This document shows positions 6,527 to 40,578 of a DNA stretch of 64,000 nucleotides, one piece after another. Location of the stretch: positions 1 to 64,000 of IMG/VR virus record IMGVR_UViG_3300008963_000727; one strand, given 5' to 3'. How positions within the stretch are numbered: the stretch's first letter is position 1; each line of letters starts with the position of its first letter. The position numbers and the translations under genes were made by a program. This DNA comes from a virus. The notes under the pieces were generated by a model that saw only the letters and a program-made list of their open reading frames with translations, did no database searches and was not told the DNA's origin.

Positions 6527-6564
6527 TATAATAAATACATGTGCAACGCCAACTTGGGTTGCAC
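6527..6564 (+). promoter_or_regulatory. Late promoter plus 5'-UTR hairpin upstream of hsp20
   Basis: ATAAATAC at 6531-6538 (also readable as TATAAT 6527-6532). A 7-bp hairpin GTGCAAC (6541-6547) / GTTGCAC (6558-6564) begins right at the expected transcription start. The hairpin does not include the AGGAGG ribosome binding site 30 nt further on, so it may cap or stabilise the mRNA. Confidence 0.6.
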
Positions 6565-6597
6565 TATTAGTCACTTGCTTAATAAAGGAGGACAACA

Positions 6598-7035
6598 ATG
6601 ACTAAAATTACTTCATTAGACCTATCACCGTTTTACAGAAATACAATTGGAATGGATCGAATTTTTGATCGCGTAATGGATCAAGTTGATACCGCTGGTT
6701 CCAATGGCAATTATCCACCATATAACATCGTTCGTGTTGATGAAGATCGTTATGAAATTCAGGTGGCAGTTGCTGGTTTCAATAAAGAAGAGATAGATAT
6801 TGAATACCATGAAGGACACCTAACTGTTACAGGTAGACAGGAAAACAAAAACGAAGATATTGAATATCTTTACCATGGTATTTCATCAAGAGACTTCACG
6901 CGTTCATTTACGCTTGCCGAATATGTAGAGGTAAATAATGCGGTTATTGAGAATGGAATTCTTACTATTAGTTTAGAGCGTATTGTCCCTGAGACAATGA
7001 AGCCTAAGTCTATTGCAATTACCCAAAAGGGATAA
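6598..7035 (+). CDS. Hsp20 / alpha-crystallin small heat-shock protein
   Basis: 145 residues with an alpha-crystallin domain (about residues 37-130). Visible hallmarks are YNIVRVDEDRYEIQVAVAGF, LTVTGRQE, the arginine-containing strand FTRSFTLAEYV and ENGILTISLERIVPE (the C-terminal consensus GILTI). The preceding ~35 residues with YRNTIGMDRIFDRV are the IbpA-like N-terminus. Small heat-shock proteins hold unfolding proteins for refolding; hsp20 genes are common in marine T4-like phages, where a role in virion assembly is suspected. It has a strong AAAGGAGG site and its own late promoter, and is followed by a hairpin terminator. Confidence 0.95.
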   Translation: MTKITSLDLSPFYRNTIGMDRIFDRVMDQVDTAGSNGNYPPYNIVRVDEDRYEIQVAVAGFNKEEIDIEYHEGHLTVTGRQENKNEDIEYLYHGISSRDFTRSFTLAEYVEVNNAVIENGILTISLERIVPETMKPKSIAITQKG

Positions 7036-29434: not shown

Positions 29435-29442
29435 ATACACTC

Positions 29443-29500
29443 GGCCTGTATCTCAGTTGGATAGAACCAGCCTTCTATAGTAAAGTCATTTGAACCAAAC
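29443..29500 (+). pseudogene. Degenerate tRNA-Arg (TCT) remnant
   Basis: A good 5' half (GGCCTGTATCTCAGTTGGAT, then AGAACCAGCC TTCTA) resembles a tRNA D-arm and anticodon arm with TCT, but the 3' half is lost: no T-arm or matching acceptor strand follows. Either a decayed gene or the target scar of a recombination event. Confidence 0.6.
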
Positions 29501-38982: not shown

Positions 38983-39004
38983 TTTAAAAAAAATATGGAG
39001 ACAA

Positions 39005-39154
39005 TATAACGATACACACTCAGGGTTGCGTTCAGTGTACAAGACATGAACGGTAAATGTACTAGAACCATCGGGAGTGGCTTCCCGACTGCACTATACA
39101 GACCCTGCCAAATCCTAGGCTATCGGGCAATAAAAATGAGTGTGTATTGTTATG
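39005..39154 (+). ncRNA. Structured RNA A, closed by an 18-bp stem
   Basis: 39005-39022 pairs with 39137-39154, all 18 positions (two G-T wobbles). Inside are a TCGGGA/TCCCGA hairpin (39071-39088), a GTTC-A-GTGTAC / GTAC-TA-GAAC arm (39029-39069) and GCC/GGC around 39107-39120. About 150 nt, no ORF, directly after the tRNA-CAT. It lacks recognisable tmRNA, 6S or RNase P motifs. Resembles in position the stable RNAs C and D of the T4 tRNA region, but similarity was not tested. Confidence 0.75.
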
Positions 39155-39171
39155 GTGTCATCAATGCAATT

Positions 39172-39266
39172 TTTTAGTATAGAGACTGAAACACTCTGCA
39201 GGGTGTTCCTTTCGGTGGAGGAAGTTTACCTTTAGAGGGAAAAACCGAACAGTCTCTATTCTAAAA
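39172..39266 (+). ncRNA. Structured RNA B, three-way junction
   Basis: TTTTAG-T-ATAGAGACTG (39172-39188) pairs with CAGTCTCTAT-T-CTAAAA (39250-39266), 16 bp with one T-T mismatch. Inside: ACACTC-TGCA-GGGTGT hairpin (39191-39206) and TTCGGT (39211-39216) with ACCGAA (39244-39249). About 95 nt. Confidence 0.72.
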
Positions 39267-39282
39267 CATTGTTATCATTGAC

Positions 39283-39392
39283 AAGATGACTGCTGAAATG
39301 GGAGTAGCCGGGTTCGATTCCCGTGCACCCGGTGGCCGGTGATAAAAAGGTAGCTCCGCTCGGTGGTTCAACTCCACCCTGTCAGTCATCTT
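39283..39392 (+). ncRNA. Structured RNA C with two T-arm-like hairpins
   Basis: AAGATGACTG (39283-39292) pairs perfectly with CAGTCATCTT (39383-39392). Inside lie CGGG-TTCGATT-CCCG (39309-39323) and GGTGG-TTCAACT-CCACC (39362-39378), both with tRNA T-loop sequence and 7-nt loops, and AGC-TCC-GCT. No anticodon arm or CCA in the usual places. About 110 nt. Confidence 0.72.
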
Positions 39393-39429
39393 CTCAATGG
39401 TTTTAAAAGTAAAAAAATAGGAAAAATTT

Positions 39430-39894: not shown

Positions 39895-39980
39895 ACCCCC
39901 TGTTCCCGACAGCGGTCTTCTAAACCGCTTCCTTAATGTTGGGTGGAAGGTGCAAGGTTCAATTCCTTCAGGGGGTGCCA
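39895..39980 (+). tRNA. tRNA-Arg (TCT)-like RNA lacking a D-arm
   Basis: Acceptor ACCCCCT (39895-39901) with AGGGGGT (39970-39976), discriminator G, CCA. Anticodon arm AGCGGT-CTTCTAA-ACCGCT (39911-39929) with TCT. T-loop GGTTCAATTCC. Only nine bases separate acceptor and anticodon stem; there is no D-arm. Instead CCCGAC (39905-39910) pairs with GTTGGG (39938-39943), extending the anticodon helix. May be a truncated tRNA, a tRNA mimic or a fourth structured RNA. Confidence 0.7.
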
Positions 39981-39999
39981 AACAAAAGAGAGAAACATT

Positions 40000-40578
40000 A
40001 TGAAAATTAATCTACGCAAAGCACACGCTATTCAAACACAGATTCGTGAAGAAATGAATCGTTTAGATTTTTCTACCGAAATTTCACTTAATGAATATGA
40101 GTGGGCAGAAGACCAAGTTAAGACAGCCAAGAGCAATCTTGATGGTCACTTGAAAACATGGGATAAACTAACTGGCGTTATGCTTGATATTCGCAAGAAG
40201 GTTGCACGAGCAAATGCAGATGAAGGTATTTCTGACCTCCTCGCAGATGCAGCAATGATTGACAAGCAAATTCAACTTTACACGCAGTTTGCAAATGCCC
40301 GACCACAAGATAAAACTACTGTTTTGAACGGTCGTCTTAAAAAGCGTCAGGAATCTACTGAAGCAAGCCATTATGGTGGCTTTGGTGGTGTTTCTATTAG
40401 CACAGGCGTTCTGACTGATAATGATATTGACAAATATCGCTTAGAACTTGCCAACCTTAAACGTACCAAGCAGGAAGTACAGGAAATGATTCTTGCTGCT
40501 AACATTGACACTGAAATTGAGTTAGATGAAGATGAAGAAAAACTTCTTGCTCGTTTAGGTATGATTTCCGATTTTTGA
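40000..40578 (+). CDS. Helical protein of unknown function
   Basis: 192 residues from ATG 40000 (MKINLRKAHAIQTQIREEMN); an earlier ATG at 39943 is inside the tRNA-like RNA. Mostly amphipathic helices, with a glycine-rich hinge HYGGFGGVSIS near residue 125 and an acidic end. AGAGAGAAA site. No family recognised. Confidence 0.72.
   Translation: MKINLRKAHAIQTQIREEMNRLDFSTEISLNEYEWAEDQVKTAKSNLDGHLKTWDKLTGVMLDIRKKVARANADEGISDLLADAAMIDKQIQLYTQFANARPQDKTTVLNGRLKKRQESTEASHYGGFGGVSISTGVLTDNDIDKYRLELANLKRTKQEVQEMILAANIDTEIELDEDEEKLLARLGMISDF

Follow-up and report, generated by a model that had tools for sequence, protein, structure and literature searches.

A tRNA-Arg(UCU)-like phage gene with one D-stem strand and the D-loop apparently transposed behind the anticodon arm, and its relatives in many phages

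Introduction

Positions 39895–39980 on the plus strand of a phage DNA of 64,000 nucleotides (the first part of the 194,522-base virus record IMGVR_UViG_3300008963_000727, here called the window) look like a gene for tRNA-Arg(UCU) that has no D-arm in the usual place, and the question is whether such a gene can specify a working tRNA, is the remains of one, or encodes some other structured RNA. An ordinary tRNA is built in the order 10–13 (5' strand of the D-stem), D-loop 14–21, 22–25 (3' strand), anticodon arm, variable region and T arm. The sequence, its predicted fold and its relatives lead us to the view that the gene very probably encodes a working tRNA-Arg, reading AGA and AGG in the phage mRNAs during infection, in which the strands of the D-arm are arranged in a swapped order.

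Results and Discussion

Parts and fold of the gene

An earlier note on this DNA, made from the letters alone, had described a tRNA-Arg(TCT)-like gene without a D-arm, and both the description and its coordinates proved exact (Table 1). The acceptor, anticodon arm, T-loop and CCA, which the note called good, are so: 8 of 8 acceptor pairs are formed (ACCCCCTG/CAGGGGGT), the arms are intact and the T-loop is ordinary. The note had also seen only nine bases in place of the D-region, paired with the variable region, and the linker between acceptor and anticodon stem is indeed the nine bases TTCCCGACA, in which CCCGAC pairs with GTTGGG of a 25-base variable region (hereafter the D-V helix). The acceptor, the anticodon stem and the D-V helix are all present in the unaided minimum-energy fold of the window strand, and for the T arm a competing pairing is preferred in RNA folding of that strand. 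An alternative fold with a normal D-arm was rejected, there being no room for it in nine bases. The gene thus departs from the canonical cloverleaf in having nine bases only where a D-arm should lie between positions 8 and 26, and also in its branch lengths, the canonical 7-bp acceptor and 5-bp T stem being replaced by 8/4 in the class to which it belongs (class I, see below) and kept as 7/5 in class II.

Table 1. Coordinates in the window of the parts of the gene, the gene downstream and the upstream remnant.
Feature	Position	Strand	Basis
D-armless tRNA-Arg(UCU) of class I; CCA encoded	39895–39980	+	Sequence, fold, covariation in relatives
Acceptor stem, 5' strand ACCCCCTG, 8 bp with 39969–39976	39895–39902	+	Sequence; relatives
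Acceptor stem, 3' strand CAGGGGGT, G73 and CCA	39969–39980	+	Sequence
CCCGAC, equivalent of canonical 22–25, continuous with the anticodon stem	39905–39910	+	Sequence, fold, covariation
Anticodon arm GCGGT-CTTCTAA-ACCGC, anticodon UCU (TCT) at 39919–39921	39912–39928	+	Sequence
CCT, pairs with AGG 39948–39950 as the 5' strand of a short stem in the variable arm, giving a pseudoknot	39931–39933	+	Moderate class I covariation
GTTGGG, transposed strand (equivalent of canonical 10–13), partner of 39905–39910	39938–39943	+	Sequence, fold, covariation
GGA, D-loop mimic, equivalent of G18 G19 A20	39945–39947	+	Conservation in class I members found through pairing alone
T arm AAGG-TTCAATT-CCTT, 4-bp stem, hence 8/4 acceptor/T	39954–39968	+	Sequence
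Gene directly downstream; orthologue in L307 preceded by ordinary tRNA-Arg(UCU)	40000–40578	+	Comparison with L307
Remnant resembling the 5' half of an ordinary tRNA-Arg(UCU) gene	29441–29477	+	Weak matches, E 0.06–0.7

The gene escapes the usual tRNA finders. The six tRNAs that ARAGORN reports in the window are ordinary ones and do not include it, nor is it listed for RF00005 at E≤1 in the Rfam search of the window. Its best Rfam match is tRNA-Sec (RF01852), with which it shares an 8-bp acceptor stem and a long variable region, but tRNA-Sec has a 6-bp D-stem and the anticodon UCA where the phage gene has no D-stem and UCU, and with a score of 34.6 bits against a cut-off of 47 this identity was rejected. 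In the D-armless family as a whole, ARAGORN touched 2 of 163 genes and called neither of them Arg. Our model R2, for which the structure was supplied, could not tell the gene apart from ordinary tRNAs (25.1 vs 26.1 bits), and the consensus that RNAalifold itself drew from alignment A2 (model R1) missed the D-V helix.

The locus and its nearest relative

The gene lies 18 bases past the preceding gene and 19 ahead of the start codon at 40000. For the downstream gene the ORF caller had chosen a GTG start (39943–40578) that falls inside the tRNA, and comparison with the nearest relative contig, L307, points to the ATG at 40000. In L307 it is an ordinary tRNA-Arg(UCU) that directly precedes this downstream gene, at the orthologous position; the alignment of the two DNAs resumes at window position 39981 and L307 position 1913, just past both tRNAs, and the downstream proteins are 90% identical. 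No other tRNA-Arg was found, by the Rfam tRNA model in the 194,522-base record or by ARAGORN in the window, as the Rfam model gives the same six tRNAs over the whole record. AGA codon use, which the earlier note had proposed as a check, fits such a tRNA, AGA being the commonest Arg codon with 261 of 740 in the 69 ORFs of at least 100 aa in the window. These data support the view that the gene takes the place of an ordinary tRNA-Arg(UCU).

A replacement of this kind had been suggested in the earlier note on the strength of a broken tRNA-Arg(TCT) relic at 29443, 10 kb upstream. That relic is confirmed only in part. About 37 bases, from D-arm to anticodon, are tRNA-Arg-like, with 81–85% identity to tRNA-Arg genes of other phages among the matches listed; the E-values are weak, nothing is left of the 3' half, and none of the Rfam families gave a tRNA match at the site. 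It is chiefly the tRNA-Arg(UCU) at the same locus in L307, and not the relic, that supports the replacement, and the relic is not favoured as direct predecessor at the 39895 site, since the ordinary tRNA-Arg of L307 occupies the D-armless locus itself.

Three neighbouring stretches upstream of the gene (38999–39159, 39167–39271 and 39276–39399) are each bounded by long inverted repeats; the last contains two T-arm-like hairpins, and the matching stretch of L307 (1622–1802) contains three. None of the three stretches had a match in the Rfam search of the window. The earlier note left it open that the odd gene might be a fourth structured RNA, an option that the arginine anticodons of its relatives, described below, make less likely. 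Elsewhere in the window, positions 6540–6603, just before an ORF at 6598, match a ROSE_3-like thermosensor with 35 bits against a cut-off of 43.

Relatives and distribution

The earlier note did not notice the G18G19A20 signature in the variable region, nor could it tell from the letters alone that a widespread family has this architecture. An unannotated homologue was found by blastn in Nitrincola phage 1M3-16, with 83% identity over 70 bases; neither its acceptor nor its anticodon stem pairs perfectly, and within its D-V helix a C-to-T change is offset by a G-to-A change. A faint blastn match in Aeromonas phage AhSzw-1 shows the same plan with different bases, and this phage has two D-armless tRNAs in tandem, CCU and UCU. 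Because of the Nitrincola homologue, and of a D-V helix kept in the relatives with many compensatory changes, the gene must be more than a chance arrangement.

Relatives are present in hundreds of phages, cultivated ones included, and most are unannotated. The AhSzw-1 gene is matched in 342 phage records, in 331 of them over at least 80% of its length, mainly from Vibrio (304) and Acinetobacter (31), and none of the four class I regions examined (AhSzw-1, PG07, Av-05 and Va1) has an annotated tRNA at the site. Besides AhSzw-1 and many Vibrio phages, the cultivated carriers include Felix O1, 121Q and Justusliebigvirus. Parsed D-armless genes of class II were obtained from Felix O1, 121Q, XacN1, Cp1R7A-A1, ManiMatter_Bas94, Eryne, Enygma, JLBYU50, HC-25922, VpaE1_ev78 and Zooman, and some of these named relatives have no encoded CCA. 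In two cases an annotation exists: 121Q gene 124 (KM507819 73585–73666; positions 500–581 of our locus L262) bears the label tRNA-Leu(taa) although it is a D-armless tRNA-Arg(UCU) of class II, and the copy of VpaE1_ev78 is annotated as an unnamed tRNA on the opposite strand.

Viral contigs were scanned with three patterns, and the strict-parse counts given here are matches over all loci collected. With the UCU loop fixed, 79 of at least 120 matches were D-armless, 30 ordinary and 11 unparsed; the class II pattern with a free anticodon gave at least 124 matches (115 D-armless, 3 ordinary, 6 unparsed), and the class I pattern with a free anticodon gave 47, namely 38 D-armless and 9 unparsed. The stricter rules were used after a parse on a loose T-loop motif, whose rows of D-armless Ser, Leu and Glu tRNAs were false, being ordinary tRNAs in the wrong register. 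A scan of bacterial genome contigs with the class II pattern only returned 42 stretches, of which six are D-armless Arg, three from Bradyrhizobium and one each from MAGs of Marinifilum, Chitinophagaceae and Dependentiae; 35 of the 42 were rejected as ordinary Ser or Leu tRNAs according to ARAGORN, and one (L266) is ambiguous. The three Bradyrhizobium loci (L270, L272 and L282) are dense arrays of 13–22 ARAGORN tRNAs in 8 kb together with a D-armless tRNA-Arg(ACG). Matches in Mycobacterium were dropped, the similarity being confined to the T arm of a tRNA-Gly.

Two classes and the conserved D-V helix

As judged from their sequences the relatives form two classes that share one plan, and these may be related or convergent. 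Class I, with the window gene, has the 8/4 branch and a D-V helix of 5–6 bp followed by xGGA, and also a short outer variable stem that produces a pseudoknot. Class II has the 7/5 branch, U8 and A9, and a D-V helix of 2–4 bp followed by TAAYTGGA, so that A14 R15 Y16 U17 G18 G19 A20 are reproduced in order in the transposed loop.

The candidates for the tests of the helix were chosen without requiring it, and near-identical sequences were dropped (class I from 50 to 47, class II from 133 to 118). All 5 positions are paired in 44 of the 47 class I sequences, with 228 of 235 cells paired, compared with at best 189 cells and 18 sequences in 2000 shuffles and at most 113 cells on slides of 1–3 bases; class I was counted by script because the MAFFT alignments A1 and A3 move some of its helices by one column. 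In class II the first pair is present in 118/118 sequences and the second in 117/118, with all four Watson-Crick types at each, and the third is non-standard in about half. In alignment A2 (60 sequences) 96.5% of 1185 cells are paired, with a covariation score of 0.896 against a shuffled mean of 0.206.

The G18G19A20 signature comes up again a short step past the 3' side of the D-V helix. When class I members were picked out by pairing alone, G18 was found in 26/26, G19 in 26/26 and A20 in 24/26. The Levitt pair 15:48 of class II is, among the matches listed, A:U in 109, G:C in 8 and other in 3 (n=120, four non-Arg rows of 124 being left out), a degree of pairing matched by 0 of 10,000 shuffles. 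The outer variable stem of class I is weak, with at least 3 pairs in 36/45 and only 2 in 9/45 (shuffles: mean 22, maximum 32). Position 73 is unconstrained in class I (T 23, A 12, G 6; n=41).

The broken ordinary tRNA-Arg remnant in the same genome might suggest that the gene is itself a degenerate tRNA heading for loss, with accidental pairing. All stems of the gene are intact, however, and in many phages compensatory changes maintain the plan, one class I member alone being similar to 342 records, so that this explanation is extremely unlikely here; as a general account of the family, degeneration is refuted by the covariation of the D-V helix.

Arginine identity

The window gene has the arginine anticodon UCU, and nearly all of its relatives have arginine anticodons as well. 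With the anticodon left free, Arg was found in 38/38 parsed class I genes (TCT 36, CCT 2) and, among the matches listed, in 114/115 D-armless class II genes (ACG 53, TCT 50, TCG 5, CCT 5, CCG 1, and one GAT). Non-arginine anticodons were seen as GAT (GAU) in L222 (7359–7442) and L043, and as a GTA (GUA) loop in L234, which was D-armless in one parse and failed the stricter one; in such members the fold may possibly have passed to tRNAs for other amino acids, or they may be missense readers. A20 is described in a passage of PMC9976931 as the main arginine determinant in E. coli, and the GGA at 39945–39947 offers this base in the transposed loop for putative recognition by ArgRS. The long variable region, and tRNA-Sec as best Rfam match, could instead point to charging with another amino acid, for example serine, with AGA recoded. 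The arginine anticodons together with A20 speak against this, as does the ordinary tRNA-Arg at the locus in L307; moreover the variable region serves the D-V helix and contains no long Ser-type arm, and we consider recoding very improbable.

The D-armless genes rarely duplicate the anticodon of a canonical tRNA-Arg on the same fragment. At the 40 loci that also have a canonical tRNA-Arg only 5 share the anticodon, where permutation gives a mean of 13.8 and a value as low in 3 of 10,000 permutations. The tRNA stretch of Felix O1 is an example, with 25 ARAGORN tRNAs among which Arg(ACG) is present and Arg(UCU) absent, and the D-armless Arg(UCU), unannotated as tRNA, sits inside it.

Colicin D cleaves tRNA-Arg. 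The gene product could be a mimic of tRNA-Arg and not an adaptor, acting as decoy for host nucleases of the colicin D type or as a regulator that occupies ArgRS. That the family is arginine would suit such a role, and PMC10264068 proposes that phage tRNAs counteract enzymes that deplete tRNAs, including Colicin D. A decoy would have no need to complement the canonical Arg anticodons of its fragment, yet this is what is observed; several arginine anticodons are kept (UCU, ACG, UCG, CCU, CCG and GCG), the gene exchanges with an ordinary tRNA-Arg at the same locus, and AGA is the commonest Arg codon. On these grounds a pure mimic is improbable, and a decoding tRNA-Arg is preferred.

Comparison with known tRNAs

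With canonical tRNA-Arg (RF00005) the family has in common the acceptor, anticodon and T arms, CCA, Arg anticodons and G18G19A20, but there is no D-arm in place, the equivalent of 10–21 lies behind the anticodon arm, and ARAGORN and the Rfam tRNA model do not find the window gene. The 8/4 and 9/3 tRNAs of Mukai et al. 2017 reportedly keep a D-arm and are of Ser, His, Cys or Sec type; class I has the same 8-bp acceptor and 4-bp T stem, but the window gene has no ordinary D-arm. Metazoan mitochondrial D-armless tRNA-Ser likewise has a short linker for the D-arm, but is mitochondrial and specific for serine, and it is not known to have any helix or D-loop mimic in place of the lost arm, whereas the D-V helix and GGA substitute for the D-arm in the phage gene. 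Such a tRNA-Ser is Y-shaped in the structure described in a passage of PMC11551756. According to the same part of that source an engineered D-arm-less tRNA-His (mini-HisT) is charged and used by E. coli; like the phage gene it lacks the D-arm, and it is usable by bacterial ribosomes, but it is artificial.

Proposed architecture

We propose that the segment equivalent to 10–21, the 5' strand of the D-stem with the D-loop, has been transposed behind the anticodon arm into the variable region. The strand equivalent to 22–25 would be kept in front, running into the anticodon stem, and the variable region would hold its partner strand with the D-loop signature (GGA = G18 G19 A20) after it. Taking the sequence with the known geometry of tRNA, the front and variable-region strands should run with the same polarity as the D-stem and D-loop of an ordinary L-shaped tRNA, and this polarity would let G18G19 meet the T-loop and the D-stem stack on the anticodon stem. 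The L-shape would thereby be retained despite the transposition, and A20, the main determinant for bacterial ArgRS, would still be presentable. Expression of the gene, charging by the host ArgRS and decoding are likewise to be expected from this plan.

An addition to the reading as a functional tRNA-Arg is that the odd fold was selected for escape from host tRNA-Arg nucleases or degradation. Arginine is almost alone affected, and PMC10264068 proposes that phage tRNAs evade anticodon nucleases, but the anticodon loop, where recognition usually takes place, is of the ordinary kind (CTTCTAA in 37/41 class I genes), and we regard selection for escape as rather unlikely. A broader and tentative proposal, less likely than not, is that the genes form a topologically new, natural and non-organellar class of tRNA, with one D-strand and loop transposed and the three-dimensional contacts kept, which would be Arg-specific because ArgRS reads A20, would have spread through phages of many hosts, and would be retained because nucleases or quality control directed against ordinary tRNA-Arg fail to recognise the fold.

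In the open-access literature searched, which did not cover bioRxiv preprints or most subscription papers, we found nothing on naturally occurring D-armless tRNAs of phages or bacteria, and priority is not established; the passages considered from the review PMC7609411 do not mention phage or virus.

Significance

Natural D-armless tRNA genes thus exist in phages, those of E. coli K-12 included, where they presumably serve unaltered host ribosomes. The proposed plan would show that the topology of a tRNA can be re-wired with its contacts kept, and it would explain arginine isoacceptors that are missing from phage tRNA sets. A whole class has been missed or mislabelled by the tRNA finders, as with 121Q gene 124 and its Leu label, and its existence raises the question why nearly only arginine is concerned.
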